From Okeania sp. SIO3I5 (GTDB lineage Bacteria; Cyanobacteriota; Cyanobacteriia; Cyanobacteriales; Microcoleaceae): DNA of 64,000 nt. Below, piece after piece: positions 584 to 34,916 of the stretch; position 1 is the stretch's first letter, and every line of letters starts with the position of its first letter. The stretch covers positions 27,837-91,836 of the forward strand of contig NZ_JAAHHT010000006.1 in NCBI RefSeq assembly GCF_010672085.1, written 5' to 3'. The translations under genes and the position numbers were made by a program. The notes below the pieces were generated by a model that worked only from the letters and a program-made list of their open reading frames with translations, ran no database searches and was not told the DNA's origin.

Positions 584-2977
584 TTAATCGTACAACTCAG
601 GACAAAATTCTTTACCCCAGTCAGGTAAACCTACTTTTGAATATTCCAATGAACGCTTAAGTAAGTCAATTATATTAGGCATTTTATTTAACAGCTCGAA
701 TGCAAGAACGTTGCATGGTTTTGAGTTTTTATCTATAAAGGAATTCGCATTAGCATCAAGCATTAAATAAAACCTCGGGTTGTGATTAACATCACTACCA
801 AATCCAATAATCACAACTTTTAATTCATCTTGACTGTTAAGTTTGCCACAAGTTTCTTGAATATGGTTAACAAAAGCATGGTAATCGTCAAGTTCCCCAT
901 CTGTATAGATAATTATAAATCCTCCTTCATTTGGCATTCGCGTACCAAACCATTGTCCGACAATTTTTTGAAAAGTAGGAGCTAAAAAAGTGTTACTATC
1001 GGGTTGGTTTTCTTCAAATAAAGCAGGTACTTGAGAGTCATCTTGAATAGGACGAATTACTGTTGGAGGACGATTGGGACTGAAAAATGTTACGGTAATT
1101 TCATCGCAAATTTTTTCACCATTCATACCTTCCTCATTGAGAATATTATAAACATGACTTTCTATAACTTCTGCAATAGCTTTCCAACGACGCTCATTGT
1201 TGAATAAACGGTCTCTTTTCACCATTGAACCGCTTTGATCAATTAACATATAAACCTTGCGGTTATAAATTTTTTTGCTCTCCCTAATAATTCCCCTTTT
1301 TGTAACTATTTGCTTTGTTTCTTCTGTGGAAATATAAACTTCTGGGTTTATAGCTTCTTTAAATTCTATACGTGGAGGTTTCAAAACAGATGTTAATTGT
1401 TGATTTTTGGCACGACGTAAAACACGAATATATGTAGTAGGTCCTGGCAATTCTTGACAAATAATACTATCAGATCCGTTATCTTTTATGTACTCCTTAA
1501 ATACATCAAAACCACGACCAATTCCTTCAAATACTAATAAGTTTAAAAGATACAAAGCAATAGCTTCATCAACTGGATTTGATACAGGTGCTATACCATC
1601 AATTAGCTTATCCCAAGATAATTTTGGTGAGAATGTACCCGGACTATAAACTTCAAGTGCTTCTGGTGTGATGGTAACTTTTACTGTTCCTGATAATTGG
1701 TAATCTCTGTGAGCAATAGCATTAGAAATTAGTTCCCGCGCCACTTGAATATCAATGTCTTCTACTTCTCTCCTAAGTCCATTTTCTGCTATATATGATA
1801 TAGTTTCTGAATACTTTTTGACTCTTTCGACTAGAGCTTCAACTTGAAAACTTAAAGGACCAAATATATCTTGTCTAACAAAATTAGATTCTTTGGGTCT
1901 CCCAAAAACAAAAACAGACCTAGCCTGGGGGTATATCATTTCAGGTCTTTTATAAAAGCAGAGAACAGCAGATTTATGAAGTACATTTCTACCTCCATAT
2001 TGAATGGGGGAATAAAGCTTTAGTTTCGATAGGACTTCCTCTAAATTAGCTGTCTTGTAAAGTTCTGGTTCGACTTTATTAGCGTATTTCTGTAGAAGCT
2101 CTAAATCTATATCTTTAGTAGTAGCTTGTGGAGAAGGATGTCGATTAGGGTGAGTTTGTTCGTAGAGAATTTTTAGTTCTTCAGGTGTTCTAATAGAATG
2201 ACTTGATTTAACATTGTCCTGAGTAGAATATTCCATCTTTTTCCCTTGAGCAATCCAAATTTTTTTCTCAGCTCTATCCAGATGAAAAACTGAACGTTGT
2301 GGAAACTTTGAGTATCTTTCTTCTGTTTCCAATTTATAATTAATATAACTAACTATATCTTCAACATAAATTTTTCCATCATTTGTTCCTTTTTCATCAA
2401 GACTTGTTTCAATACCCATGCAAAAAATATCTGTGAATACTCCAGATGAACCATCTAATAGTTCTTGACTTGTTTGAGTCTTTCGAGACGAAGCGATAAT
2501 AGCAATTCCTTGAGGAATATCATCTTTTTTTATAGAGTTAAAAACATTATCATCTGAATTTCTACTCCCTTCAACAGCAGCTCCACTATGGCAAGCATCA
2601 AGAATAATAATTGCACGTTGAACTCCTGCTAAATCTAACTCATTCATTAAATTTTTGAAGGGATACCACTCAGAATTATCCAACCCCATTTTTAGACAAT
2701 ATTGATTATTTCCCCGAATATCTCCATGTCCTGAAAAGTAGAAAACTAACTGAGTTTTGATATCCCAACCTTGGAGAGTAGACCTCAATTTTTTTTCAAA
2801 ACTGTCTCTATTTTCACAATCATGTATTGGTTTAGATTTATTGGGAAGACACATCCCCTGCTGTGGATTAGTCAAAATAGAGTAAACTCTTGAAACATCT
2901 CGGTTTCCTCCCTTTAGCTCTTCACCAGTTGAGGAGTTCAAGACTAAAGCAATTCTTTTCGGTGAATCTTCTGACAT
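584..2977 (-). CDS. caspase-like peptidase / HATPase / VWA fusion protein (probable conflict-system effector)
   Basis: The 797-residue protein has three visible modules. Residues ~7-235 are a caspase/metacaspase (peptidase C14) domain with the catalytic His in FSGHGD (H84) and the Cys in DACHSGA (C129). Residues ~320-520 resemble the divergent ATPase region of AlbA_2/HATPase_c_4 proteins (COG2865 type), with an N-box-like ELISNAIAHRDY at 415-426 and SPG at 445-447. Residues ~572-770 are a von Willebrand A domain with an intact MIDAS, DQSGS (D580, S582, S584), and YTDGE at 691-695. There is no signal peptide or membrane segment. The gene starts 6 bp after the EACC1-like gene, so the two form an operon. 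The protein would be a cytoplasmic suicide-type protease whose activity is gated by nucleotide and a VWA adaptor; that role is inferred from related conflict systems. Both catalytic residues are present, so it looks functional. Confidence 0.85.
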   Translation of the reverse strand: MSEDSPKRIALVLNSSTGEELKGGNRDVSRVYSILTNPQQGMCLPNKSKPIHDCENRDSFEKKLRSTLQGWDIKTQLVFYFSGHGDIRGNNQYCLKMGLDNSEWYPFKNLMNELDLAGVQRAIIILDACHSGAAVEGSRNSDDNVFNSIKKDDIPQGIAIIASSRKTQTSQELLDGSSGVFTDIFCMGIETSLDEKGTNDGKIYVEDIVSYINYKLETEERYSKFPQRSVFHLDRAEKKIWIAQGKKMEYSTQDNVKSSHSIRTPEELKILYEQTHPNRHPSPQATTKDIDLELLQKYANKVEPELYKTANLEEVLSKLKLYSPIQYGGRNVLHKSAVLCFYKRPEMIYPQARSVFVFGRPKESNFVRQDIFGPLSFQVEALVERVKKYSETISYIAENGLRREVEDIDIQVARELISNAIAHRDYQLSGTVKVTITPEALEVYSPGTFSPKLSWDKLIDGIAPVSNPVDEAIALYLLNLLVFEGIGRGFDVFKEYIKDNGSDSIICQELPGPTTYIRVLRRAKNQQLTSVLKPPRIEFKEAINPEVYISTEETKQIVTKRGIIRESKKIYNRKVYMLIDQSGSMVKRDRLFNNERRWKAIAEVIESHVYNILNEEGMNGEKICDEITVTFFSPNRPPTVIRPIQDDSQVPALFEENQPDSNTFLAPTFQKIVGQWFGTRMPNEGGFIIIYTDGELDDYHAFVNHIQETCGKLNSQDELKVVIIGFGSDVNHNPRFYLMLDANANSFIDKNSKPCNVLAFELLNKMPNIIDLLKRSLEYSKVGLPDWGKEFCPELYD

Positions 2978-4128: not shown

Positions 4129-5022
4129 TCACTCTGGTTTTCTCCACCCCTCAATAATGGCCTTTACAATATTGACATAGGGGTTGTCTATAAGTTTTTC
4201 AATAGGTGCCCTACCAGCAGCTTGTAACGCAACAACAAGCCGGCGTTTAAAGCTAGGTGTAGTTTCATCATTAACATAGGTAATTTTTTCACCGCCAGTA
4301 GCATTAGGGTTACTTTGCTCTAACTGATTTAGGAGTTTTTGAATTTCTTTTGCTGCCTCAGCTAAAGTCTGCTTTTGCTCAGATTGATAGAATGTATTGT
4401 TATCTAAACGAGGGTTTTTCCTGATAGCACCAGCTTGTTTAACATTGTAAGTATCTCCTATAATTTCCTCTCCTTTTACATTAACTAGTAACGGAATATC
4501 TTCATCACCAAAACTACAAACATTTTTCAACACAAAATTATTATTTTCTTTCACCAAATTACCCCTACATAACACCGGAAAACGTTCTTGATATGCCCTA
4601 ATAGCAGTCACATAATCCCGGTCAAATAATACCAATTTTATCCGCTCCAATTTATTCATAACTACTCCCATTAAATCAACCTCTCCACTCAATTTATCTC
4701 CTTCAGGAGACCTCACCCCCACAACTAATCCTTGTATCTCCACATTAGGAAAATTAGTAATTAAGTTTTGCAGAATTTCTGACTCAGTTTTCTCCTCAAA
4801 CTTAGCTAAATTTTCCACCAATAAATTCATAGTTACAGGAAAATCTGCTACTTCTGGATTCAAGGGTAAAACCAAAGTTAAATTAGACAATTCATTGCTC
4901 CAAATAATTGCCTCATTTTCAATCTGCCTTTGCTGTTGCTAACCTCGCTTTTCTAAATAATTAGCTACAACTTCCGGCTGAATATTTTTCAATAAATCAA
5001 TATCTTTAATAATTAAATTCAT
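4129..5022 (-). pseudogene. cyanobacterial DUF4365-partner protein, interrupted by one stop
   Basis: Starting at the ATG at 5022, the frame reads MNLIIKDIDLLKNIQPEVVA and continues in phase to 4129 except for a single TAG at 4941-4939 (codon 28), where relatives typically have Trp. Downstream of the stop the frame is intact for ~250 codons. The C-terminus has the pattern EAAKEIQKLLNQLEQ ... IIEGWRKPE, a tail shared by many cyanobacterial proteins of unknown function. The ATG overlaps the TGA of the upstream DUF4365 gene (ATGA), the usual sign of translational coupling. Translation might restart at the TTG at 4890, but that would lose the conserved N-terminus. Function is unknown, and the pairing with a nuclease-like gene suggests a two-gene system. 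Confidence 0.65.
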
Positions 5023-5522
5023 AACCCTTCTCCTTGCAAGATTTTCTGCATAATTATCTCCAAGGCTTCAGCAGTAAACATATTTTTTCTAGGAATTGAA
5101 ACTGTAATATTATCTTGATTTTCCGTAGCAACAGCTCCCGCTAAAGACAACCAATAACCACAATGTTGAAGACAAAGAGATACCTCAGATTGTTGTAGCC
5201 ATTCTTCTACTTTTTTCGGCACAACCACAACAATTAAAATTATCGGCGGATAACGATTAACTCGTCTCAATTCATTATAGTTTTTCACAGACAAAGGAAA
5301 GCGGACTAAATCATTATTAATCACCTCCCTAGAAGTACATTTTACCTGAGTATAAAGAATGGGAAAACTTTCTCGTGGTGATTACTTTAACCCAGTTAAA
5401 ATTAAATCAATTCCTAACCCATCTAAAGATGGAGTAGTTCTCTCACAAAGACAACCTGCAACAGTAGCAACTGCTCGAACATAAGCATAACTAAACTCCT
5501 CTTTTTGCAGATTGATTTTCAC
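5019..5522 (-). pseudogene. DUF4365 (PD-(D/E)XK-like) protein, interrupted by one stop
   Basis: From GTG at 5522 the frame reads VKINLQKEEFSYAYVRAVA, hits TAA at 5384-5382 (codon 47), then continues in phase through TQVKCTS, FPLSVKNYNELR, LCLQHCGYWLSL and the end at 5019. This is the DUF4365 pattern. The aspartate of GIDLIL (D39) and the later QVK form a plausible D...QxK nuclease core. Only one base change separates it from an intact gene. It overlaps the next gene by four bases (ATGA). The visible 101-residue open part (5019-5324) would lack the catalytic Asp, so the product is probably inactive unless the stop is read through. Confidence 0.7.
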
Positions 5523-5799
5523 TCAGTAACCTCTTTAATTTATCTAATACTGTTTGTAAGCATTTAGCTATCAGCTATCAGCTATAAATTATACCATTTA
5601 TATAGAATCCGGTTATATAATATATGTTCATAATTCTATCTACGCTTCAATATTCAATCTCCTCATCTCTCCATCTTTCCCAACTATATAACAACTATAT
5701 AATTTAAGTATTCAAGCAGATTTGTATTATTTGTCAGAAAAAAGGGTTGCTATTAACAACCCCTCTCTCTCACACTTTCAGAATGATTATTATTTTCAC

Positions 5800-7401
5800 T
5801 TATTGTGAATTTCGTTTCATAAATTGAGCTTTTAGCTGTGGTAACCAACTAAAATCAGCAGATAAATCTCCACCAAAAACTGGCACTTTTGTTGAATGAC
5901 CATTGGTATTTTTAGTTATATAACCAGTAGCAATACCAGCCGAGAAATGACACGCCATACAACTTTCTGTTCCAAAGACTTGAGTATTATCAAAAGGGAA
6001 ACCATTTTCTTGGAAATGGGCTTCTTGATTCCCAGTTTGGAAGTAGGTCTCCATGATACTGTTAGTTAAGTAAACAGGAGCAGGTGAACCAGTAGACTTT
6101 CTGGTAATTCCTTCAGGAAGATTATCAGGAGATGGATTCCCTGGGACAGCTGCGTAACAACTATCAGTAGGAAACCTACACTTATCAGTAGGAAGCGGTG
6201 CAGTTGGCCATTGGGTATCGATTAGTTCATAATATTGTAATGGGGAGCTAACTGCAGCTAATATTCCTTGGGCTTGTTCGTTTAATTGTTGTTTAGCTTT
6301 AGGAATAGGAATAGGACGAGATACCTGAGTTCTCTTCATTCCACTGATATCAGGTTTACCCGTTTTTATATCGCGAGGTATAGGTGGAACATTCACTGGT
6401 AAAGTCTGTCCTGCTGCACTGTAGTCGTGGAATAACGGATATAAAGGCCGACCATTTACACTTTCCAAATCATTAACATCGAGATTATCAACTTGCTCAA
6501 AGGTTGCCCAAATCCACTGGGGAGAAGATTTGGTTTTGTGAGAAATGTGCATTCCTACCAATCCCATTTGTTTCTCTTCACAATTCTTAAAGTTGCCATT
6601 ACGATCCAAAATCGGCTCCCCATTATCATCCAAATCAGGTAGTAAAACTGTTTCTGTATAGAAGCGACTAGGGATGTCTAGGTGGGGAAGGCTGCGATCG
6701 TCAATATTTAATTCCTTCCAAGCCAATTTCAATTCAATCACTCCTACTTCTCCTGTGGCATTATCCCCAGTCGGAAAATTTACAGGCAGATGGCTGTTTT
6801 GGGAATAGGCAATTTGACCATCAAGGTTATAGAGCTTATTGTCTACTATGTAGTTGTACTCCTCGTCATTGATGAAGATTTCGTAACGGACTTCTTTACC
6901 GTTTTGATCGTAGAGGGGAGAGGTAAAAGCTTGATCGACTTCATCGGCAATATTTTGATCGACGGTATTGGAAAAGATAGAACTGGTTACATAAAGCTCT
7001 CTCATATTTCCTGGGTTATTATCACAACGCCGAGGAGTATCCTGCATAGGATCGCCTCCATCAGGACGAAATACCTGAAGACTTTCCTTCCAAGTTTGCC
7101 ACTCGGGAGTTCCTGAATCAGTGATTTCTGGAAGAGGATTACCCTCAGAATCAACAGGCCAGTTGAAAGCAATAAAGGACTGCCAAGAAAATACATCAAA
7201 GATCCGCTGTAAAAGAGGAAAATTGTTATTTAGTAATTTTTTTTCTCTCTGCTGAGTAATAGGAATATCAATGGGAATATTTGGACTTAGAGATAAAGAT
7301 TGAGCTTGAGCAGTAGTAGTTCCCGCTTGAGCTGGAAACCCGTAAATTAACAAAACAAAACTGAGCAAACAAGCAGTACAAATTTTATTGATTCGATTCA
7401 T
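5800..7401 (-). CDS. secreted protein with one c-type haem motif
   Basis: The protein has 533 residues if the start is the ATG at 7401. A longer in-frame start at 7479 would put 26 extra residues in front of a clear signal peptide, so 7401 is preferred, and AGAGAAGA lies just upstream. The signal sequence is MNRINKI followed by a hydrophobic core and ends near FPAQA. The only recognisable motif is CMACH at ~481-485, a single CxxCH haem-attachment site near the C-terminus. The bulk of the chain resembles uncharacterised periplasmic proteins rather than a classical small cytochrome c. It is probably a periplasmic or outer-envelope redox protein. It lies ~400 bp downstream of the GH31 gene on the same strand, with no evidence of co-transcription. 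Confidence 0.65.
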   Translation of the reverse strand: MNRINKICTACLLSFVLLIYGFPAQAGTTTAQAQSLSLSPNIPIDIPITQQREKKLLNNNFPLLQRIFDVFSWQSFIAFNWPVDSEGNPLPEITDSGTPEWQTWKESLQVFRPDGGDPMQDTPRRCDNNPGNMRELYVTSSIFSNTVDQNIADEVDQAFTSPLYDQNGKEVRYEIFINDEEYNYIVDNKLYNLDGQIAYSQNSHLPVNFPTGDNATGEVGVIELKLAWKELNIDDRSLPHLDIPSRFYTETVLLPDLDDNGEPILDRNGNFKNCEEKQMGLVGMHISHKTKSSPQWIWATFEQVDNLDVNDLESVNGRPLYPLFHDYSAAGQTLPVNVPPIPRDIKTGKPDISGMKRTQVSRPIPIPKAKQQLNEQAQGILAAVSSPLQYYELIDTQWPTAPLPTDKCRFPTDSCYAAVPGNPSPDNLPEGITRKSTGSPAPVYLTNSIMETYFQTGNQEAHFQENGFPFDNTQVFGTESCMACHFSAGIATGYITKNTNGHSTKVPVFGGDLSADFSWLPQLKAQFMKRNSQ

Positions 7402-7797
7402 GTTCTTCTCTGAAATTAAGCTGATCAAGCTTATCAAGGTACAAATTTTACATCGTGTGCAACTTTTTCCAGCCAACAAGATTTAAGGACTTTTGAGCAG
7501 TATATTTTCTGCTAAAGACCTAGAAATGTTGATGATTCTGTAGAAAGTTGCACATCGCGTAAATTTTACAATTACCAAGCTGTGTGCAAATTTTTCCAAC
7601 CAACGAGATATAGCGATTTTTGAGGAGCATATTTTCCGCACCCAAGTCATTGCAACTGGAACGGAGTGGAAGGAAGCAATCTCAGGGGTTTAGAAGATTA
7701 CTTCCTAGAGATAGTTAGTTTGGAAACTAAAATTACTAACCTCCGGCAAAAGTTTCAAAAACTAACTTTAATCTCTACCATATATAAAATTGGTAAT
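7402..7797. repeat. intergenic, two diverged copies of an ~85-bp repeat
   Basis: No gene is visible. Two imperfect copies share TTTTTCCA(A/G)CCAAC and the downstream GAG(C/G)A...TATTTTC. A 23-bp string at ~7541-7563 (TAGAAAGTTGCACATCGCGT...) recurs in reverse orientation near 26534-26556, so it is part of a dispersed repeat. The remainder shows no recognisable signal. Confidence 0.4.
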
Positions 7798-10700
7798 TTA
7801 TTGTGCACCTGACACAAAAAGCCTCATCGTTGGTGTTGTATCAAAGACTTTGATATAGACAGTTTGGCTATTACTGTCATAGTAATAAGCATTAATATTT
7901 GAATCAGCTAATGCTTGGAGACTTCCTGCTGATGAATAGAGTTGACTACCATTAGCTGTAACTGAACTTGGTGCTTGTGTTTGTCCTAATAAAGCCACAT
8001 AATAAAACTCTTCAGGAGGTTGATAGTTATCATAAGTCCGAGTCAAGGTAATTTGCTTACCGCCATCTTTTTGCTGATGTTCAATCCGAGTAGTCCGATA
8101 AGCTTTATTTTTCTCAGCATCCGTACTGATGTGGTCATCTTGATACCAAGTATAGCTGGTATCCTTCGCTGGATCTTGACTATAGACTCTTTCCTTGCCT
8201 GGATAAATGTTGAAGGTAAGGTAATTTTTCTCCCATTGCCCAACATATAACTCTAGTTGACGCACTGGAATAATTGCCCCTTCCCGAATATAAACAGGAA
8301 CTAAATCTAGTGGTTGCTCCTCAAAAAACCACGTTATTGTGTAATTACCTGGAGTAGAAGGCTGTAATTTACCATCCAGTACAGTAGGTAAATTAGTATC
8401 TGAAATAGGAGAGGTTGCTTGGCTAGATGGGAAAGAAAAATTGCCGGTGAAGGTATACCAATTAGAACCACTAGGCAAATAAACAGGTCGGGAAGGTGCG
8501 CTATGCTTTTCTCCTGGACCGTAAGAATACTGTTCTTGCCAACGCTGAAGAACAAGAGGAGCTACCAGTATGTCACGTCCCACGAAGAATTGATCCTGGT
8601 TACGGTATGTTGGGGTTGTGTCATATGTCTTCTCATTGTCGTCGGGCCCGACATAGATTACGCCATTAACATCAGTTAGGGGGTAGAGGCTTGAATCTTG
8701 AGGATCGTTCACGAACATTGCCCGAGAAATAGGCATACCTGTTTGAGTACACTCATACATCGCATCATAGAACAATTGCAAAAGTGCATAGCGAATTCGG
8801 ATGTATTTAGCACAAGCTGGAAGGACTCGCGTGTCACGAGGATTAGGAGTCTGCTTCGTTATGTAATAGGTGTAGTTGTAAGGTTCCTGATAAGCTTTGG
8901 TATAACCATCATAATGGTTACGATACCAAGGCAAAAATGCACCCATGGTCATCCAACGAGCCAAGAGTGTTGGTTCTGTTTCACCTCCAGTAATGTATGG
9001 TGGGTTGTTTGGATCGGTGTTAAACTTATTATGAACTGTTACCCCATACTTGTCCTCACTACCAGAACCATTAGCAAATCCTCCAATATCACAGCCACTT
9101 AAAGGTTGAGCAGACATTCCCCAGTTTAGGACTTCAGGAATGTTGATCGATAAGAAATCCCATGAAGAAGCTGAATCTCCTGTCCAGTTTGCAGCATAGC
9201 GGTGTACTCCAGCATATCCACCCCGAGCTATAATAAAGTTACGCTTATTTTTGTTGTAGTGTCCCTCTGGTAATGCTTCCTTAATAGCAGTAAGACCGTG
9301 GTAAGTTGCATCGATCATGTTGAGAGCATAGGCATTGTGAATCTTGGCATTAGGAACTTGACTACCATCAAGATCGCTCATTAAAAGATCGCCAGGTAAA
9401 GTTTTGTAATGAGCAGCAGCTTCCGTACTTTGAGTCACAGCAGGACAAGTCATATCTTGCCAAATCATGTCTAGCCCATTGTTGATTAATTCATAATAAT
9501 TGCCAGTCCACCAAGCCTTGACCTCACCTCTAAGAAGATCCCCGTAGTGGCCGTAAGTTCCCAGAGGGATATTAGGACAACTACAACCAGGAACATTTTT
9601 GACATTTGGTATTGTAGATTCAGGATTAAAACCTGTATTACAGCCGTAGCTTTCGTTGGTGATGAATGGTCCTCCTTGCCCTTGTTTCTTTCCATTAGCA
9701 TCTAGATAGTAGTCGGTAATAAAATAGTTCTTTTCTGTACCTTCCTGAATCACATTTCTATTGTAAGGCTGCCCCACTGCAGAATAGCCATTTTCGTTGT
9801 AGCTAAGGTTGATAGCCTGCACAGAATATGGAGTATCTCGGTCGTAATCATCTTTCGTCACCATAGTCATGATGCCTGTGATGTTGGTGCTACACTTAAA
9901 TCCCATTTGGTGTAATTGGCTAAATAGGACTGTAGTACCATCAGGATTGCTAGGATCGGGCTGTGTTGCTTGGGGAAATCTTTTCTTGCTAGCAGTGAAA
10001 GTACGGTAGTTATCTTGAAAATCAACATCAATGTGTAAGCCGTCAATAGGAATATTGTACTTACGATAGGAGTTAGCAACCTCCATCAAACGCTCTGTGT
10101 CGTAATACCCATATCCTCCTTGTTGATAGCCCAGAGCATACATTGGTGGCATAGGGCATGGTCCAGTTAAGATTATATATTGCTGCAACACTGAAGGGAT
10201 ATCGTCTCCCGCCATGAAATAGTAATTCATCTCCCTATACAGCGCACCCAAGTAGTATTTGCCATCCATGTATTCGGAGTAGTCATTGCTCTGAACGTTA
10301 AAGAAGGTTTGACCAGGATTATCTAAAAAGATAGCGTAAGCGTAAGGATCTCCAGCAAAATATCCTGACGGGTTAGGATTCCACTCTACTAAAATCGGCA
10401 TCGAATTGTAGAGAGGCTCTTCTACATTGAGAGGACCTGGTCCTGATGGCACAACAGGATAACTATCACCTTGGATTGTATCAGGTCCCTCATAGGTAAA
10501 GTTGTCATAATTGAAAAAGGTCATGGTGCCGAAGTTTTTGTTGAGATTAACTCCCGCTTTTTCTCCAAAACCGTAGTATCCTGCACCAGGAGCAACTTTC
10601 ATAAAGCAGGCCGTTACTTCCGGCACTAAAGTAGACGGCTCTAAAAATTTTGGTATGTAAACTAAGTTATAGCTATAGCAAGTTTCATGGATGGTCTGAG

Positions 10701-11094
10701 AGCCACGCTTGACTTGAATACCATAGGGTTTTAAACCAACAAAGATTGTAATATTGTTGAGATCAATACGTATGACTGGATTGTTGGTCTCATTTACATC
10801 CTCCTTATAGGATACATTGACCGAACCCAAGTTACGGTTGACTACAGCACTAGATAAGTTATTCGAGTAGTCGGTAGAGTTGGGATTAAAACGGACCTGA
10901 AAAGCAGAAGGACCGAGAATATAAATCTTGATTTGAAGAGTATTACTGCTCTCGGCTGTTAGAAGAAAGCTTTTTTCCTGAGCATTGTAAGACCAATTAG
11001 CAATATTACCTATACTGCGCCAAGGATTATTTTCACCATTAGGCGCTGGGGTAAATTCGTTGACTTGAGTAAATCCATAGGGAACTTGAGACAT
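7798..11094 (-). CDS. GH31-family protein, probable alpha-1,4-glucan lyase
   Basis: The 1098-residue protein has a beta-sandwich N-terminal region (~1-310), a GH31 (beta/alpha)8 barrel (~315-790) and C-terminal beta domains. Several motifs read as red-algal/fungal alpha-1,4-glucan lyase rather than hydrolytic alpha-glucosidase: DGLHIDVDFQDNYRTFT (351-367), KCSTNIT (400-406), IWQDMT with the nucleophile Asp at 547 (hydrolases usually have WIDMNE), and ANWTGDSASSW with the presumed acid/base Asp at 640. FLPWYRNHY and YPGKE are also present. The length matches the ~1040-1090 residues of algal lyases. The expected reaction is non-hydrolytic release of 1,5-anhydro-D-fructose from starch or glycogen ends (EC 4.2.2.13). 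There is no signal peptide, so it would act on internal glycogen. An alternative is an unusual alpha-glucosidase or transglucosidase. The gene stands alone. Confidence 0.8.
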   Translation of the reverse strand: MSQVPYGFTQVNEFTPAPNGENNPWRSIGNIANWSYNAQEKSFLLTAESSNTLQIKIYILGPSAFQVRFNPNSTDYSNNLSSAVVNRNLGSVNVSYKEDVNETNNPVIRIDLNNITIFVGLKPYGIQVKRGSQTIHETCYSYNLVYIPKFLEPSTLVPEVTACFMKVAPGAGYYGFGEKAGVNLNKNFGTMTFFNYDNFTYEGPDTIQGDSYPVVPSGPGPLNVEEPLYNSMPILVEWNPNPSGYFAGDPYAYAIFLDNPGQTFFNVQSNDYSEYMDGKYYLGALYREMNYYFMAGDDIPSVLQQYIILTGPCPMPPMYALGYQQGGYGYYDTERLMEVANSYRKYNIPIDGLHIDVDFQDNYRTFTASKKRFPQATQPDPSNPDGTTVLFSQLHQMGFKCSTNITGIMTMVTKDDYDRDTPYSVQAINLSYNENGYSAVGQPYNRNVIQEGTEKNYFITDYYLDANGKKQGQGGPFITNESYGCNTGFNPESTIPNVKNVPGCSCPNIPLGTYGHYGDLLRGEVKAWWTGNYYELINNGLDMIWQDMTCPAVTQSTEAAAHYKTLPGDLLMSDLDGSQVPNAKIHNAYALNMIDATYHGLTAIKEALPEGHYNKNKRNFIIARGGYAGVHRYAANWTGDSASSWDFLSINIPEVLNWGMSAQPLSGCDIGGFANGSGSEDKYGVTVHNKFNTDPNNPPYITGGETEPTLLARWMTMGAFLPWYRNHYDGYTKAYQEPYNYTYYITKQTPNPRDTRVLPACAKYIRIRYALLQLFYDAMYECTQTGMPISRAMFVNDPQDSSLYPLTDVNGVIYVGPDDNEKTYDTTPTYRNQDQFFVGRDILVAPLVLQRWQEQYSYGPGEKHSAPSRPVYLPSGSNWYTFTGNFSFPSSQATSPISDTNLPTVLDGKLQPSTPGNYTITWFFEEQPLDLVPVYIREGAIIPVRQLELYVGQWEKNYLTFNIYPGKERVYSQDPAKDTSYTWYQDDHISTDAEKNKAYRTTRIEHQQKDGGKQITLTRTYDNYQPPEEFYYVALLGQTQAPSSVTANGSQLYSSAGSLQALADSNINAYYYDSNSQTVYIKVFDTTPTMRLFVSGAQ

Positions 11095-11600
11095 AATTTG
11101 CTACTAAATCTATAAAACTAATACAAAGCTTCGGATAATGTTGCAACCTGATGTTTACTTCCTGCTACGATCGCTGTTCATGGCAAGACCTCGACAGGGA
11201 TAAACAGTCAAGATTCACGTATCTTTGCCATGCATTTAATTTAAATATTACACAGTTTCGGATCAGAATTTTCCACATTAATAAAACTTAACTTTTTTTC
11301 CTGAAATTGAAACTGTATATAGTGATATTTATACCATTTCTAAAAAGTATTGCTACATCTCCTTAAGCAGAAAAAGTAGGAAGTATGGAGTAGAGAGTAT
11401 AGTTTAAAAATGTCTTAAATATTTATTTAATGGCAAAAAATTGTTAAAAACATTATTTTTACTGATTTATTAGTTAGTAACTGAAGTTTTGAGCAAGTAT
11501 AGCATTGTTTTGGGGAATTTGTATTACCTGGGAATGAAGATATTTTTGGTATTGCTCCTAGGAAAAATTCCTGAATACTTGGTTCTTTTACCAAGGAAAT
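11095..11600. other. intergenic stretch without recognisable gene
   Basis: The stretch is AT-rich, with one GC-richer part (11150-11230) just upstream of the GH31 gene that could hold its promoter, although no clear -10/-35 pair was identified. The segment GTTTTGAG(C/G)AAGTAT near 11491 also occurs near 22867, so part of it is dispersed repeat. Confidence 0.3.
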
Positions 11601-12640
11601 TTAATTGGATAAAAAGTCATGTGTATAGGCGAACAACCCCATTTAATCTTTAAGCTGATCACAAAAATTGTGAGAATAGAAGGGAAAATTCTTTGACGCG
11701 CGATTTTTTTCGGGAGCTTCAGACAATGAAAATGTTGAGAGTTTTCGACGCTAGGATGGATGGAAAAATTTGACGATGGGAAAAATCAGCACATAAGTTT
11801 ATCGGAAGCTTCAGAAGATGAAAATATTTCTGCTCTTGCTCCTGGGGAAAATTCTTGAATATTTGATTGTCTACGATCAAGAAAAATAGGTTGAATAAAA
11901 AGTCATGCGTATAGGCGAGTTACCCCAGTTAATCTTTATAATATCACAAAAATTGCGAGAATGGAGCCGAAAATTCTTTGACGCGCGATTTTTTCGGGAG
12001 CTTAAGGCAATGAAAATGTTGAGAGTTTTCCACCCTAAGATGGATGGCAAAATTTGACGATGGGAAAAATCAGCACATAAGTTTATCGGAAGCTCCAGAA
12101 GATGAAAATATTTCTGCTCTTGCTTTGCCAAAGAAAATTCCTGAATACTCGCTCCTCTACTACCAAGGAAAGTTGGTTGAATAAATAGTCATGCGTATAG
12201 GCGAGTTAGCCCATCTAATCTTTATAATATCACAAAAATTGCGAGAATGGAACCGAAAATTCTTTGACGCGCGATTTTTTCGGAAGCTTAAGGCAATGAA
12301 AATGTTGAGAGTTTTCCACGCTAGGATGGATGGCAAAATTTGACGATGGGAAAAATCAGCACATAAGTTTATCGGAAGCTCCAGAAGATGAAAATATTTC
12401 TGCTCTTGCTTTGCCAAAGAAAATTCCTGAATACTCGCTCGTCTATTACCAAGGAAATTTGGTTGAATAAAAAGTCATGCTTATAGGCGAGCGACCCCAG
12501 TTAATCTTTATAATATCACAAAAATTGCGAGAATGGAACCGAAAATTCTTTGACGCGCGAAATTTTCCAGGAGCTTCACAGAATGCAAAAGTTAGCACTA
12601 GCTAAAATGGCGATCTAACCGAATAAATCTTCTGATTCTA
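11601..12640. repeat. tandem array, exact 286-bp period (array A)
   Basis: The landmark GTCATGYRTATAGGCGA occurs at 11616, 11902, 12188 and 12474, spaced by exactly 286 bp each time. Each unit carries two copies of a core like AGCTTCAGAAAATGAAAAT, a CGCGCGATTTTTTCGG box and a TTCCT(A/T)GG-like box. The short open frames inside it (for example around 11877-12131 and 12160-12417) exist only because the unit is repeated and are not credible genes. The same sequence family occurs inverted at 41.7-43.4 kb. Confidence 0.85.
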
Positions 12641-12771: not shown

Positions 12772-14343
12772 TTAAAGAAATTCATTGAAGTTGCCAATGT
12801 TGACATTATTAATATTACTGCCAGGAGTTACATCAACAATTGGATCTACAGTAGTTTGAGAGAAACCAAATTTTTGCACTTCTCGAATTGTGTAAGTATT
12901 AGGAGGTAAATCCTCAAATGAATAGAAACCAAATTCATCAGTGATAGTTGCAGGTTCCCCAATATCTAAGAGACTATTGTTATTCAAATCTAGATACAAG
13001 GTGAAGTTATCTAAACCATTTTCTCCAGAGTCAAATATTCCATTTGCATTTTCATCATTAAATTTAATCCCATTAATTTCACCACGGTTACTTACATTCC
13101 CAATATCAACATTTGTGATGTTACTTCCGGAAGTTACGTTAATAATTGGATCGGGAGTAGTTTGGTCAAAATTTGCTGATTGAGTTTCCCTAATTATGTA
13201 AGTATCTGGCGGTAAATCTAGGAAAGAATATTCACCATTTACATCAGTAATAGTCGGAGGTTCCCCCTCATCCAAAAATCCATTTTGATTCAAGTCTAAA
13301 TATAGAGTAATATCTGCTAAACCCAATTCTCCAGAGTCAAATATTCCATTAGCATTCGTATCATTAAATTTAGTACCGCTAATTTCACCGCGATTATTTA
13401 CATTCCCAATATTGATATTTGTCAGATTACTTCCGGGAGTTACATCAATAATTTGGTCGGGAGTAGTTTGAGCAAAACCTGGTGGAGAAATTTCTCGCAA
13501 GATGTAAGTATTAGGAGGTAAATCTTGGAAAGAATATTCACCATTAACATCAGTAATAGTCGGAGGTTCTCCCTCATCTAAAAATCCATTTTGATTGATA
13601 TCTAAATATAGAGTAATATCTGCTAAACCATTTTCTCCAGGGTCGAATATTCCATTAGCATTCGTATCATTAAATTTAGTACCGCTAATTTCACCGCGAT
13701 TATTTACATTTCCAATATTGATATTTGTCAGATTACTTCCGGGAGTTACATTAATAATTTGGTCGGGAGTAGTTTGAGCAAAACCTGGTGGAGAAATTTC
13801 TCGCAAGATGTAAGTATTAGGAGGTAAATCTTGGAAAGAATATTCACCATTAACATCAGTAATAGTCGGAGGTTCTCCCTCATCTAAAAATCCATTTTGA
13901 TTGATATCTAAATATAGAGTAATATCTGCTAAACCATTTTCTCCAGAATCAAATATTCCATTAGTATTCGTATCATTAAATTTCGTACCGCTAATTTCGC
14001 CTCGATTATTTACATTCCCAATATTGATATTTGTCAGATTACTTCCGGGAGTTACATTTAAAATTTGGTCGGGAGTAGTTTGGTTAAAACCTGGTTGTTG
14101 AATTTCTCTAATTGTATAAGTATTAGGTGGTAGGTTATTGAATAAATAACCTCCGAAATTATTGGTAATATTAACAGGTTCATTAAAGTCTAGAGAACCA
14201 TTGTTATTAATATCCAAGTAAATTGTGAAATTAGGTAAGCCAAATTCGTTAGGATCTAACCTACCATTGGCGTTAATGTCATTAAATTTTAAACCACTAA
14301 TATTACCTGTAGGGTTAAACTGAGACGCTGTTAATGTCTCCAT
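12772..14343 (-). CDS. SdrD/Cna-B-type repeat protein, probable surface adhesin
   Basis: The protein has 523 residues made almost entirely of five 102-residue repeats. Each starts G(N/E)I(S/N)G(L/T/I)KFND and contains two Asp/Asn-rich segments (NANG-x2-D-x2-E and DxNxNGxLDxxEP), then YxFxxLPPxTYxIRE and ends NxxIGN. The pattern is that of SdrD-B/Cna-B beta-sandwich domains with calcium-binding-like loops. There is no signal peptide, anchor or membrane segment, so export, if any, would need a C-terminal type I signal or another route. The last repeat is nearly complete and the C-terminus is short. The middle three repeats are nearly identical, which suggests recent duplication or homogenisation. 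It is probably an extracellular structural or adhesive protein. Confidence 0.75.
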   Translation of the reverse strand: METLTASQFNPTGNISGLKFNDINANGRLDPNEFGLPNFTIYLDINNNGSLDFNEPVNITNNFGGYLFNNLPPNTYTIREIQQPGFNQTTPDQILNVTPGSNLTNINIGNVNNRGEISGTKFNDTNTNGIFDSGENGLADITLYLDINQNGFLDEGEPPTITDVNGEYSFQDLPPNTYILREISPPGFAQTTPDQIINVTPGSNLTNINIGNVNNRGEISGTKFNDTNANGIFDPGENGLADITLYLDINQNGFLDEGEPPTITDVNGEYSFQDLPPNTYILREISPPGFAQTTPDQIIDVTPGSNLTNINIGNVNNRGEISGTKFNDTNANGIFDSGELGLADITLYLDLNQNGFLDEGEPPTITDVNGEYSFLDLPPDTYIIRETQSANFDQTTPDPIINVTSGSNITNVDIGNVSNRGEINGIKFNDENANGIFDSGENGLDNFTLYLDLNNNSLLDIGEPATITDEFGFYSFEDLPPNTYTIREVQKFGFSQTTVDPIVDVTPGSNINNVNIGNFNEFL

Positions 14344-27374: not shown

Positions 27375-30300
27375 TTATTCATTTCCCGCAAATTTTTGAT
27401 AATCTGCAAGTAACCAATGAGGCAGTTTATCCATATCTTCTATCTGCAATTGTTGTGGGCGACAATATAACATTGCAGCTAATAAATAATTAATAGCTTT
27501 CGGCGCTTCTATTCCTTGAGAAAGTTGGGTAGCTAACTCTTGTAAAAATTCCTGTTCGTACTCTATTAAAGATTCATTTTGAATCTGACTATTGAGTAAT
27601 TCTTGATAACCTTTACCCATCTCACCCAAGTAGAAAGTTTCGAGTTTTTGCGGTTCTAAATTTATCCAAAAATCAGCCGTTTGTTTTCTCAGTTGACGCA
27701 ACTCTTTAACAACAGATTCATCAGACGGATCTATATAATAAAGATTCACACTACCTAATAATTGATTCAGAAATTTTTGGTTGGCAGAATCTAAATTATC
27801 TGCCTTATTTTCTGTTAAAACTACATTAACTTGTAGGGGTTTGGTTTCCAAACCCTTGGTTTCCAAACCCTTGGTTTCCAAACCCTTGGTTTCCAAACCC
27901 TTGGTTTCCAAACCCCTACCAATAGAATCTTCTGATAAATGAGGTGACTTAGTTTGAAAAGCTTTTTCTAATTTCTGTGCAACTTCTCTACTTTCAAATA
28001 CCTGTTTATAATCATTAATCAACCACTGAGGCAAACGATTTTTAGCATCTCGGACTAACATTTTACCAGGTGGAAAATATAACATTCCCCCTAAAAGTGC
28101 ATTAATACCTTTCGGATTAGTTAGACCTATACTTGTATCTGCTAATTCTTTGAGAAATTTTTCTTCTTCTTCTGTTTGAGGTTCGTTTTGAATTCCACTT
28201 GCTAATAATGCTAGATATGCTTGTCGAACTTTACCTTGATAAATAGTTTCTAATTCTTTTGGTGATACATCTAACCAAAAATCAGCTATTTGTTTACGAA
28301 GTTGACGTAATTCTTCAATTAAAGATTGGTCAGTCGGGTCAATTTTGTACAGATTTACACAACCTACTAAACGATTGATAAATTCAGAAGTTAGAGAATT
28401 ATTATCTTGAGATTCTATAGTTTTTGGCAGATGAACATTTTGCCATTCTTGGAATAATTCTTGGAACAATTCACCTATCTGTGCAGAGTAACTACGACTA
28501 TCTAAAAATGAAGGATTTTCCTGCATTTTTTCTTGAATTTCTTGTTGCTTTTGTTGGCGAAACTCTGAATTATTAGCAAGCTTAATAGCTAGATTAATAT
28601 ACTCTGCTTCGCTGTCAGCTATTAGGTCAGGAATAGAAAGCGATCGCAACAATGCACTACCCATTAAAGAGCGGAATGAATTCCCATCTTTTGTAACTAT
28701 TGGGATCTGTATTTCTAAAGGTTCTATCAGAGAATTTACTCCAGCAAATGGATAAGAATCTAAATAGACATCACATAATTTCAAGCACTCTTTAATATCA
28801 GCTCGACTTGGTAATGTCTTAATCACAATTAATCGTTTTTGATCGATACCGTATTTTTTAAATATGGAACGCATATCATTAACAAAAATAGTGCTAACTT
28901 GATAATTATTACTCCAATTAGGATTAAAGGGATATAAAACCAGAATAGAATTTGGCACGGCAGCAATAATTTTTGCCCAAGTTTCTCTTAGTTCGGGAAT
29001 AATTTTATAAAAGTTAGCTCCGGAAACAAATACAATATTTTTATCGTTTACTCCCCAACTTTCTCGACTTGGTTTAACAACTGCTTTTTCTGGTTCAGTT
29101 GCATAGTAATTAAAACAATGAGCTGCCCCTTTTAAGGTAATTAATTTTTCCTGATATTGTTGTTGAGCTTCCTCTGGAGGTTCTGTTAATTTTCCAGAAA
29201 TATAGTAATCAATATGTCTCATTCCTGTTGTGACGCAAGAAGAGGTTGAAGTTACTTGAATTCGTGCTAGTCGATGCAAAGCAAGTAAGGTAATAGGATT
29301 AGTAATAGCAGTAACATTAGTGCCAATTAAAAGTATATCTAAATCATCATTACGAATAGTTTCTACTTCGCTAATCAAGTTATCTGGTAATTTGATAAAT
29401 CTCTCTGTACAACTTTGACAATATTTTTCTAGGGGATATTCACTGGTACTTTTAGCATATAAAATAATTTCAAATTTAGTTTTATCTAAATGTTCAAAAA
29501 ATGGCAGAGTAGAAAAAGTTTCTGTTTGAGGAATAAAGTGACTACTGAGAATTCCTAAACGAATTTTATTTCGATTAGCTGCTCGCTCTGGAAATACATA
29601 ATCAAGATTAAAGCCTCGACTTTGCAATCCTAGTTCCATTATTTCTGCACGTTTTATATATATATCTTTGAGATTTTCGTTATTAAAGTAGAGAGGAATA
29701 AAGTTAGATTTCTGGGTGACAAACCAAGCCATATCTTGCCAGATTTTTGAGTCGGAGTTACTGAAGATTCTTTGATGTAAATAGTTAATCCAGTCGAAAG
29801 TATAACGGTAATATTTATCCGCTTCTCCTATTTCTTGAAAGTAGTTAGGAGCATCAATCATAAATTTGATGTAGTCATTGACAAACCACTTAGGAATAGG
29901 AGCTTCTACAAACCATTTTGGCGAGAGTTGATGGGGGTAATAATAGAGAGTTGCAGCTAAAAGATATTGAATAGAATTTTGTCGAGCTAATCCTTGAGAA
30001 ATATAAGTTGCTATTTGTTCAACAAAATATTTTTCTGTCTCTGAAATTTGTTCATATTTAATATTACTGCTAATTAACTTTTGATTAGCTCTACCAACAT
30101 CCCCTAAATAAACACTTTCTAATTTTTCTGTGGGTAAGTTTAGCCAATAATTAGCAATTTGTTGACGGACTTGACGTAACTTATTTAAAGCTGACTTATT
30201 AGAATTATCTTTTTGATATTCCTGCACATATTTAGAAACTTCAGATAAAAGTTGATTTACATCTATTTGTGGAGTGGCATCTGAAGTAACAAACAGAGAA

Positions 30301-33300
30301 ATTATCCCCTCTTTTACTTGGGAAGAATTACTACATTTTAAAGCTTCCTGAATTTGAGCGATCGCTACTTCTGCTTTTCCCACGCTCAACATTTGTTGTG
30401 CTGTTTTAGTAGCAGAAAGAGCATAATGTTCTCTAGCTAGATCGGACAATTTTTTAGATATTTCTTTTGGTAGATAAGACTCAGAAATTTCGATAGCTTT
30501 ACGAGTATCAGAAATATTTCCGCCAAACTCAATTAATCGCGAAGTTTCCGAGGTTGAATGTAAACGATAACAAGCCAGAATTTGAGGTTCATAACTAACA
30601 GGATAATAAGCAGCAATACGTTTCCAAATTTCCCAATCTGCCGCCGACTTTGCTTCTAAACAAAATCCTCCTAATTTTTCATAAACGCTACGTTTTACCA
30701 CCATTGAAGCGCATTGTATTCTCTGCATAACAACAATTTTTTCTAACCAGTTAGGAATAATACCCGGAGTTTCTTTTTCCAATGGGGAGACCATCTTTTG
30801 ATTGTTATTTTCATCTATATAAGAATGACGACAAAATGCTGCTCCAACTGTTGTATTTCTTTCTATTACTTGACGTAGCTTTTCATAAAATCCAGGCAAA
30901 ACAAAATCATCATCATGGAGTAGATGAATCCAATATCCTTGAGCGCGTTGTAGACAGATATTAAAAATTGGAGCTTGACCAATATCTTGTGGAAAATGTC
31001 GATAAAAATTAACTCTTTCTCCCCCAACTTTTCGGACAATAGCTTCTATTTCAGATTGAATTTTAACATCAGGACAATCATTAACTACTTCTATTTGCAT
31101 TTCCTCTGGAGAAGGAGCTTGTTGCAAAACACTTTTCAGAGTTTGTTCTAAATATTTGACCTTTTTGTAGGTAGGAATCATTACGGAAAAAAACGGTCTC
31201 TTGCTACTAACAGACAAAGAAGTAATAGCTGGAAATTCATCTATAATTTCAGTAAAATTAGAATTATTCATATCTGGATTATCTATATTTTTATTTCTGT
31301 TTTGCCGTTGAGTTTGATAATAAACTTTCTCTGTTTTTTGATGAATATTACCCACAGTATGATGAGCAAATTGAGTTAACTCTAATTGTAACTGCCTGGG
31401 ATTAGTAACCAATATTTCCTGAAATTTTTGACTCAGGTTTATGTTAAAAAAATCAGCAAAATGAATTCCCATTGTTTGCCAAAAATCGTTACTGTAATTT
31501 ATCTTATGCTTCAAATGGTAAACAACTGGAGTCACCAAATATTTACTATTCAAACCTTTTTTTATTGCCATACTAGGAATCCATAAATCCCACCAAGGCA
31601 GACCCAAACAAAATTTAGAAATAGGAAACTCTTCTAGTAAAAGTTTATCAAAAAAGAAAATATCAAAACCTCTTTCATAAATCTTACCTCCTGTTAATTC
31701 AAAACTATCAATATCTACTCTGGAACCAAAAATTACAGAATTTTCTGCCTGTTGAGAGATAAAAGATAGAAAATTTTCCCCTGCTTCTAAACGAATATCG
31801 GAATTAATAATCCCACAAATTTTTGTGCCGTATTGTTTGAGATAAAGTAGTAGATCGTCAACATAAATCAGAGGTCTTCCTACTATTGCTTTAGCATCAC
31901 GTTTAACTGGATAAAAAGTCACATCTTTATATATATATTCAAGCCGATTAATTTCTGCTTCATTATTTAATGAGACAACATTAAATCCAGATTTTTGCCA
32001 ACTTTCAATCGCAGATAGCTGATTTTTTTCATTACCAGCTGCAATACTTGTAACTATTACTAAATTCTTTTTGATTGGTATTTGCTGTTTAATTAAATTA
32101 ATTTCTGCTGATGTAATTTGCAAAGGTTGAGGTGCTGGTTTTGAAGTAGATAATCTTTTTACTTTAATCTGATTAAAAGTCTGAATAAACATATCAGTCA
32201 TAATCTTAGCCATTTGAGACCAAGAAAACTTTTGAGCTTGTGCTAAACCAGCACTAATTAATTGTTGCCGAACCTCAGATTTTTGCACTTCACCCAAAGC
32301 ATTTACTAACCCATTAATATCATTATCATCTATATATAAAGCTGCTGTTCCTGCCACTTCTGGAATCGAAGCATTTTTACAAGTAATAACCGGACAACCA
32401 CAAGCCATTGCCTCCAAAATAGGCAATCCAAAACCCTCATATTTTGAAGGATAAATTAAAGCGATCGCTCCAGAGTAAGCCAATATTAATTCTTGGTCAT
32501 TCAGTTGTAATAAATGAATTTTACTACCTGAAATATATTTGCTTAACTCTGGCTCTAATTTTTTATTTCCTCCGATACAAACAATCTCAAATTCTGGATA
32601 TTTTTCCAATTTAGCAAAAGCTTGAAAAAATAAAATAGTATTTTTATAATCCAGGCAACCTATTCTGTCACCCACCATCAAAAAATATGGTCGATTAATC
32701 TGATATTTTTGTTTAAAATTAGCAACTTCTTGAGGAGTCGCTATCGAAAATTTAGATTCAATTCCACAGTAAGCTACCGTGACAGAATTTATAGAAATTT
32801 GAGGAAAATATTTTATTAAATCCCGAGCTGTATTTTCTGAAATTACAATATAAGAAACTGCCTGTCGAATACTACGATGTTTTTCTTGCCATGCAGGATC
32901 GTCAATATTTTTAGCAAAAATTTCTGGAATCATATCATAACCCATAAATATAGATGGCGTTGAAATAGGAGTTGTGTAATAAGTAGAAATGAAAATATCG
33001 GCATTTTCTTCATCACATATTTGCTGCAACATTTGACGATCTGCATCTATTTTTTCATAGTTATATCCAGGTACAACACGATAGTTTATGCCAGGAATTT
33101 TAGGTGCGGTTTTTGCTCTATCAAGCACTAAGATATTTTTACAAAAACTATCTTTTGACCATACTTCTAACAAAGATTTCCAGAGACGAGCGATACCTGT
33201 ATTATTTAGTTGGAAAAATACACCATCGACCATAACCTTTAAATCCAATTGCTGCTGATTTTTGCGTTGCTTTTTTATAACTTTTTGATAGTCTAGTTGA

Positions 33301-34916
33301 GTTAAAGAATCTTTCCTTTTCTCAGGTTTATTTCTAGTCACCATAAATATGCTTTGAAGCTCGCGATTTGATAATCTTTTCTCTGTTAATAGATGCAAAT
33401 GTTCTCCATTTGAACATAAATTAAGTTTAAACTTTTGAGCAATTATAGATAATGCCTTTCTCGTAAATATAGAAATATGTTGACCTTCTTCCAGAGCATA
33501 ATACCACCAATCATTAGGACGAGGATTATGAGACGGCAATAGCTGTGTACTAAATAAAATATTTCTCGTTCTTTGCAAAATCTTCTCAATCTCAGCCAGA
33601 GGATTTATAAAATGTTCAAACACCTCAAAAGCCGTCACTAACTCATATTTTTCCTCCCCATTTATTCCCCCTTCCCATCCTTCATAAAAAATATTTTCAC
33701 AATACTTATCATACCCATAAAAATCTAATCCCAAATCGCGCATCATCCTGACAAACAAACCATATCCACAACCATAATCCAAAAACTTATCATCAGCATT
33801 AAAAAAATTAAGAATCAAATTTTCTGTAATCAAAGAAAAACTCTGATTTCTAGACACCAAACCCACATCACTACCAGCTATTGCTGACCTATAAGCTTCA
33901 TCTAACCAATAAGGATTTTCCGTTTGTATAAACCCGCAATTAGAACATTGAAAATAATCAACATTATATTTATTTAAAACCTTAGCAGTATCAAATTTAT
34001 GAGACATTGAACCGCAAACTTGGCAACGAACATCTTGAAACTGTAAACTCCCACTAAACATTATTTTCTCTGTAAAATTGTCAGCTTGAATATTACGAAT
34101 AATAGAATAAGGATGATTCATAGGAAAAATCATTTCCTCCACAGAAATATTGGCAAACTTACTATTTACATCTTTAGTATTAGTAGCTGTTGGACTAAAA
34201 CCAATATTAGAAACCAAATTTATCTGAGGCAGAATTGTTAATTTACCATGACTCCAACCAGAAAATAACCAAGCATAATCCCAAGCTAAATAACTTTGAT
34301 AACTCTTTTCAAAAATATTTGACCAATATCTAACTGCCAGAGTATTTTGAAGAATACTTTTTAACCTATTACTGTCTCGAAGTTGAGGCCAAGATTTTAT
34401 TTCAGCATCAAAATTTTGCCATGCTCGTCGCCAAGTTGCCCAACCCCAACCATGAAAATAATGAGAAAAATAATAACTATATTCTGTATATTTTTGACCA
34501 AACAAAAAATTATCTCCAGAAATCGCCATTACCTTTTCATTATGATAATATCTGTCTAATAATTCTTGGCAAAACTGAAAAAAACTCAGATGTGGTAAAC
34601 AGTCATCCTCCAATATAATTGCTGATTCAACCATACTAAAAACCCAATTCAAGCCACTAGGAATTCTTCTTTTACCAGTTAAATTAACTTCAGCATAATT
34701 AGTCAAAACTTCACACTTCCAATCAACCAGATTAATTATCTTTCTTGCTGCCATACACTTCTCAATTTCTCCTGGTTTATTGTGGCGAGGAGCATCAGCT
34801 ATTACAAATAATTGAGGAGGTTTTACTTGACGAATTGCCTGAAATACTTTTGCCGTTGTATCTGGTCGATTAAATATAATTAAAACCACAGAAGTTGTTA
34901 ATTTAAATTGAGTCAT
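27375..34916 (-). CDS. giant multi-domain glycosyltransferase/methyltransferase (2513 residues)
   Basis: Modules in order: residues 1-270, a GT-A glycosyltransferase ([19 protein letters not shown]); 298-520, a Zn-ribbon (C298, C301, C324, C327) plus SAM methyltransferase (FLDYGCGYG at 378-386); ~560-930, a GT4-type glycosyltransferase ([20 protein letters not shown] at 825-844); ~950-1180, another sugar-transferase-like segment; 1240-1480, a GT2 domain ([17 protein letters not shown]); ~1560-1680, a helical repeat unit; 1780-2160, an O-GlcNAc-transferase/SPINDLY-like GT41 domain; and two further helical repeat units at 2183-2308 and 2384-2510 (LRQLRKQ-ADFW, LETxYxG). Residues 2335-2359 are five GLETK repeats from inserted repeat DNA. 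It probably builds a complex surface glycan or glycosylates proteins in the cytoplasm. No signal peptide. The frame is open throughout, so it appears to be one gene. Confidence 0.85.
27841..27915. repeat. in-frame 5 x 15-bp palindromic repeat inside the giant gene
   Basis: Five exact copies of TTGGTTTCCAAACCC start at 27841, 27856, 27871, 27886 and 27901, bounded by GTAGGGG and CCCCTAC. The same motif occurs singly in intergenic DNA (near 26222-26250, 38370 and 44182). It encodes (GLETK)5 in the minus-strand protein. Confidence 0.95.

Follow-up and report, generated by a model that had tools for sequence, protein, structure and literature searches.

Does the GH31 gene of an Okeania locus encode a hydrolase or an α-1,4-glucan lyase, and what do its neighbours suggest about the fate of the product? 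The available part of PMC12441222 describes α-1,4-glucan lyases from red algae and fungi. Our literature search, which covered some texts only in part and had the GH31 subfamily classification outside its scope, returned no paper on a bacterial α-1,4-glucan lyase. In the accessible portions, an endosymbiont-genome paper contains the term "glucan lyase" in its reference list only, and PMC10916295 mentions glucan lyase as a structural match only.

We analysed a window of 64,000 nucleotides (the whole stretch of DNA under study) from Okeania sp. SIO3I5. With a probability of about 0.8, the gene is predicted to encode a bacterial GH31 α-1,4-glucan lyase that would act by elimination on glycogen or starch, with an exported haem protein perhaps taking part in the same process. 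A lyase-like rather than hydrolase-like nature is well supported by the tree, the active-site residues and the neighbouring genes, and the lyase reaction with glycogen or starch as substrate is the best reading of these data.

An intact GH31 gene in a cyanobacterial genome

7798..11094, minus strand: GH31 enzyme, predicted α-1,4-glucan lyase of 1098 residues (open reading frame, Pfam GH31 domains, clade with 2x2h at 100/100)

The reading frame starts with ATG, contains zero internal stop codons and represents an intact gene. Its N-terminus aligns with the N-termini of most relatives, which supports the ATG as the start codon. All four parts of the GH31 architecture (PF13802, PF01055, PF21365 and PF17137) score above the Pfam cut-offs, PF01055 with an E value of 5e-70 and 236.8 bits (cut-off 23.5). 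These domains, together with the catalytic Asp pair, place the product in family GH31, and the NCBIfam scan gave sub-threshold matches to hydrolase models only. No signal peptide is evident in the N-terminus as judged by eye, so the predicted lyase probably acts in the cytoplasm.

The host genome (10.5 Mb, 99.98% complete) contains psaA/psaB and thus belongs to a cyanobacterium; the control for this protein family matches Synechococcus only. An earlier note on this DNA had proposed that a cyanobacterium carries a lyase-like member of GH31, which agrees with the intact gene, its four domains and its host. The three motifs named there, IWQDMT, HIDVDFQDNYRTFT and ANWTGDSASSW, are all present in the reading frame. 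Their counterparts in the algal lyase 2x2h are VWQDMT, AVDVDMQDNLRVFT and MWVGDNSTTS, similar and non-identical. The third block is undiagnostic, because WTGDN is also found in many hydrolases. WQDMT together with the block CSTNIT, which the note had not named, is diagnostic for lyase-like enzymes.

Active-site residues

9454..9456, minus strand: codon of D547 in WQDMT, equivalent to the nucleophile/base D553 of the algal lyase GLase (alignments; Asp in 39/39 WQDMT rows)
9883..9885, minus strand: codon of N404 in CSTNIT, equivalent to GLase N459 (alignments; Asn in 38/39 WQDMT rows and 0/45 others)
9445..9447, minus strand: codon of C550, where hydrolases have the Glu that comes after WxDMN (Val in GLase; alignment counts)
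9175..9177, minus strand: codon of D640 in WTGD, equivalent to GLase D665, which we take to be the catalytic acid (Asp in 39/39 and 45/45 rows)

Residue counts are based on 84 aligned GH31 rows, 39 with WQDMT (query and 2x2h included) and 45 others. The presence of WQDMT in the 33 relatives is partly search-driven, since DMIWQDMT was among the six peptide patterns used; searches lacking this pattern yielded the G312 and G320 rows as well as the second G397 copy. Asn occupies the N459 site in all WQDMT rows except L050, which has Asp, and in none of the other GH31 rows, 35 of which have Ile. The Glu following the nucleophile block is present in 42 of the 45 other rows (Asp in 3) and absent from all 39 WQDMT rows, which have Cys (24), Asp (10), Thr (4) or Val (1) instead. 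Both catalytic Asp residues, corresponding to D547 and D640, are kept in 84/84 rows. The query carries the Asn (N404) and lacks the Glu (C550), and thus shows both lyase-linked features. A Glu to Val replacement in the α-glucosidase SsoMalA reportedly led to lyase activity, in the GLase structure paper of Rozeboom in 2013. The 2x2h chain is numbered with an offset of 11, giving D542 in WQDMT and N448 in QTNIT as counted on the alignment.

According to the available part of PMC12441222, D553 of the algal lyase serves as nucleophile and base and N459 assists it through a hydrogen bond that promotes elimination. The same portion states that hydrolases have Ile at the latter site, and that GH31 lyases are without the water-activating residues.

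GLase of Gracilariopsis lemaneiformis (GH31, EC 4.2.2.13, 2x2h) shares with the query WQDMTxPA, the Asn of TNIT, the acid Asp, the missing Glu after the nucleophile, the LPWxRNHYD block and the four-part GH31 architecture, in addition to the fully supported clade. The query differs from it in having Cys rather than Val after WQDMT and WTGDS rather than WVGDN, in its low barrel identity, and in being bacterial and linked to a haem-protein gene. The α-glucosidases SsoMalA (2g3m), BT_3299 (5djw), MGAM (9kz6) and the ~780-residue cyanobacterial GH31 proteins possess the same fold and catalytic Asp pair, whereas their Asn site is occupied by Ile or some other residue; they retain Glu after the nucleophile block and lie on the opposite side of the tree.

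Phylogeny of the lyase-like clade

The main tree (54 rows, LG+C20, 887 columns) contains 38 lyase-like rows including 2x2h and 16 hydrolases, and omits from the 84-row alignment seven very divergent GH31 rows, the fragment L063 and 22 further hydrolases. Lyase-like rows and hydrolases are split with 100/100 support, and the same split is recovered at 100/100 in the tree used for the topology tests (23 of the 54 rows, LG+G4). The note had suggested a GH31 phylogeny as a check; the enzyme falls outside the hydrolytic α-glucosidases, and the firm grouping inside them that had been named as refuting did not occur. Joining 2x2h with MGAM is rejected (p-AU 3e-5, 23 rows). 2x2h is the only characterised lyase in either tree, and we know of no assayed bacterial member of this clade, nor did the literature search return one.

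The position of 2x2h inside the clade is unsure because of its long branch. Within the 23 rows, a clade of 2x2h, the query and the Okeania relative is mildly rejected (p-AU 0.031), and one clade of all seven cyanobacterial rows is rejected (p-AU 0.0004). A grouping of 2x2h with a divergent cyanobacterial group (L005, L006, L062 and L084) is not rejected (p-AU 0.136). Derivation of the algal lyase from the cyanobacterial lineage of the query is thus mildly rejected, and the proposed link between this gene and the origin of algal lyases is weak.

Over the barrel, the query is on average 53% identical to the 37 other rows of the bacterial clade and 33% to 38 hydrolases, and its identity to 2x2h is 31%; the query is no closer to 2x2h than to hydrolases because the 2x2h branch is very long. 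2x2h itself shows on average 32% identity to lyase-like rows (n=38) versus 25% to hydrolases (n=38). The earlier claim of long blocks shared with the algal lyase therefore holds only in part. In a search with a lyase-family profile, 2x2h was the top match at nearly full length (422 bits), almost equalled by MGAM with 421.8 bits over two domains.

Fold comparison and a hydrolase-type alternative

The AlphaFold2 model of the enzyme (pLDDT 71, pTM 0.83) matches GH31 chains throughout; among the 50 rows, the structural alignment with 2x2h extends furthest (851 residues, 3.1 Å, Z 29.4). Fold comparison was rejected as a means of discriminating lyases from hydrolases, as neither Z nor Foldseek rank separates them: in VIA six hydrolase or transferase chains are ranked above 2x2h, and in Foldseek the Flavobacterium johnsoniae dextranase FjDex31A (6jr6) stands just above it. 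By Foldseek no hydrolase is closer than FjDex31A, which is 26% identical to the query when the structures are aligned, and differs from it by GFWTDMGEPA, by Ser at the Asn site and by its position outside the lyase clade.

Since neither fold nor raw identity sets the query apart from hydrolases, it may be asked whether the enzyme is a hydrolase or transglucosylase of GH31 whose active site is unusual, the missing Glu and the acquired Asn altering its specificity and anhydrofructose being at most a side product. Counting against a lyase in the same way, Cys, Asp or Thr rather than Val replaces the hydrolase Glu, and L050 has Asp for Asn; the Asp found at the Glu place in 10/39 rows could restore a carboxylate. 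The available part of PMC12441222 also notes traces of anhydrofructose made by GH31 hydrolases. We nevertheless consider this alternative unlikely, given that the query and 2x2h have both lyase-linked positions in common, that the Asn occurs in no hydrolase of the set and that the clade is firmly apart from the hydrolases.

Under the preferred lyase reading, the enzyme would bind the non-reducing end of an α-glucan, D640 would protonate the leaving glucan and D547 would become covalently linked to the glucosyl residue. The latter Asp, held by N404, would then take the C2 proton, with the hydrolase Glu replaced by C550, and 1,5-anhydrofructose would be released while water remains unused. These roles of D547, N404 and D640 are drawn by analogy with the algal enzyme. 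The exported haem protein may participate in the same process, perhaps by handling or oxidising the product.

Distribution of the relatives

Relatives were found by searching named genomes with six peptide patterns of the query. The 33 relatives (L034-L066) are distributed over seven phyla: Bacteroidota (12), Pseudomonadota (6), Verrucomicrobiota (6), Cyanobacteriota (3), Acidobacteriota (3), Planctomycetota (2) and Myxococcota (1). The closest is that of Okeania sp. SIO3B5, with 64% identity over 654 columns. Among 386 sampled genomes of the host's phylum, GH31 matches at E 1e-10 occur in 46, and a lyase-like GH31 in three (the host G000, G312 and G320). The lyase-like enzyme is no cyanobacterial peculiarity, as six other phyla hold 30 of the 33 relatives, and its distribution is sporadic, in the way that horizontal transfer would lead one to expect.

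Two further observations concern gene copies. The host genome contains a second, broken lyase-like copy (L002/L003, G000:C131, about 10054-12091), consisting of two pieces in different frames that share 64-66% identity with the lyase of L005, from the divergent cyanobacterial group; its N-terminal third had no match in the DNA searched. The verrucomicrobial locus L051 has two lyase-like genes in tandem (4895-7906 and 7941-10868) behind one haem-partner gene, and the two are placed in different parts of the tree.

A haem-protein gene adjoining the lyase gene

5800..7401, minus strand: partner gene, predicted exported c-type haem protein of about 533 residues, located 3′ to the lyase gene and encoded by the same strand
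5947..5961, minus strand: CMACH haem-attachment motif of the partner (aligned members)

Clustering of neighbouring genes at the loci of the relatives, followed by a search with the family profile A2, revealed a family of proteins of about 500-600 residues, to which the partner in the window belongs; the longest reading frame of the latter starts at 7479 with TTG. In 25 of the 33 relatives a same-strand member is found on the 5′ side of the lyase gene; it directly adjoins the lyase gene in 24, and in L060 an isoamylase gene lies between the two. Contig ends cut L053 and L063, and L064 is truncated at its 3′ side. The linkage spans five phyla, with gaps mostly below 250 bases. The window shows the opposite order, the partner being 3′ of the lyase gene across a gap of 0.3-0.4 kb, so the linkage survives a change of order. 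What this analysis adds is a conserved family of predicted exported haem proteins encoded beside the lyase gene.

All 24 aligned members contain exactly one CxxCH, and most N-termini resemble signal peptides or lipoprotein signals, as judged by eye. The family has no Pfam or NCBIfam match, and comparison with PDB sequences gave nothing beyond chance level. The partner model (pLDDT 70) found nothing significant in Foldseek, with a best E value of 0.11 to a fold other than P460. In VIA the top 12 rows consist entirely of cytochromes P460 and c′-β, at Z 4.4-5.5, which is below the trust level of the tool. The model may thus indicate a weak resemblance of the family to cytochrome P460/c′-β folds. 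These cytochromes also have a single CxxCH near the C-terminus, and differ in size (about 150 residues versus about 530) and in showing no Pfam or PDB sequence match to the partner.

Any match to the partner family occurs in 11 of the 386 genomes of the phylum, the close kind being the host's own only. More distant homologues exist without a lyase, and four of them from cyanobacteria (L125, L126, L127 and L129) carry CxxCH too. In addition, a gene for a LodA-like protein (lysine ε-oxidase family) was observed adjoining the lyase gene in Reichenbachiella (L039, 11186-13318), and another (L129, 10844-12880) near a distant haem-partner homologue in the Okeania genome.

The two genes might adjoin through shared transfer only, with no common function. 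The reversed order in the window, the absence of the partner from the flanking DNA shown of five relatives (L040, L043, L050, L054 and L062) and the signal peptide predicted for the partner and not seen in the lyase would fit such a history, which the same-strand linkage at 25 of 33 loci in five phyla, mostly with short gaps, makes improbable.

With a shared role of lyase and haem protein as the preferred reading, we tentatively envisage, as a possibility somewhat short of an even chance, a so far unrecognised anhydrofructose system of bacteria from several phyla. Its parts would be an eliminating GH31 lyase, an exported haem protein that resembles P460 and belongs to a family not yet described, and in many cases a DUF6209 protein. 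Together they would degrade α-glucan by way of 1,5-anhydrofructose, this reactive sugar being dealt with in a haem-dependent step outside the cytoplasm, and the algal lyases would be one branch of the clade. With bacterial enzymes that share the active-site pattern of the known lyases, an anhydrofructose route of glycogen breakdown would become testable in tractable bacteria, new enzymes for 1,5-anhydrofructose production would be at hand, and there would be relatives that help to date and root the algal lyase genes. The haem-protein family travelling with the lyase offers a concrete lead to the fate of the product.

Other neighbouring genes

A DUF6209 gene follows the lyase gene in 16 of the 33 loci; one member has a sub-threshold CBM_21 match, and our literature search found no paper on DUF6209. 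The Nostoc locus L043 has the gene row alpha-amylase, multicopper oxidase, lyase, DUF6209. This alpha-amylase and the isoamylase of L060 fit an α-glucan substrate; other loci have unrelated neighbours.

These neighbours bear on the question whether an eliminating GH31 enzyme might act on another substrate, such as an α-1,3- or α-1,6-glucan or an exported oligosaccharide, in coupling with the exported haem protein. A dextranase is among the nearest folds, and the conserved partner together with the DUF6209 gene fits no familiar starch pathway; we know of none with such a combination. Set against this are the amylase and isoamylase neighbours at two loci and the action on α-1,4-glucan of 2x2h, the only characterised clade member, and we regard a different substrate as having a low probability.

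At 3/3 loci of the divergent cyanobacterial group, the lyase gene has a cupin gene (about 240 residues) just upstream, whole in G320 and G397 and represented by a C-terminal stretch only in G312. In G278 it directly precedes a remnant of the lyase C-terminus. The gene (L131 in G312, L132 in G320, L133 in G397, L138 in G278) thus lies beside a lyase gene or its remnant in 4/4 genomes; it is found in 3 of the 386 genomes of the phylum sample and in none of the viral contigs searched. One of the two members scanned matches the AUDH cupin domain with 18.3 bits (E 0.0017), below the cut-off of 25, and the second gave no AUDH match. Searches of the PDB with the cupin returned no match. AUDH_Cupin gave one weak match (E 0.015, below cut-off) in 22 lyase-bearing genomes and no match in the host genome. 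AUDH (aldos-2-ulose dehydratase) acts on 1,5-anhydrofructose in fungi, and the weak sequence likeness of the cupin to it may serve as a lead on anhydrofructose processing. In the accessible part of PMC11650716, on a pyranose oxidase of Oscillatoria princeps, AUDH is named in the references only.

Other genes of the window were observed as well. A protein with SdrD_B repeats is encoded upstream of the lyase gene (12772-14343, minus strand), and a longer homologue lies at the same place in the Okeania locus L064; the two cyanobacteria thus have this side of the locus in common. The gene at 584-2977 (minus strand) encodes a metacaspase-like protein that has a caspase domain and, below threshold, matches a von Willebrand A domain. 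That at 27375-34916 (minus strand) encodes a protein of 2513 residues containing several glycosyltransferase domains and one methyltransferase domain.
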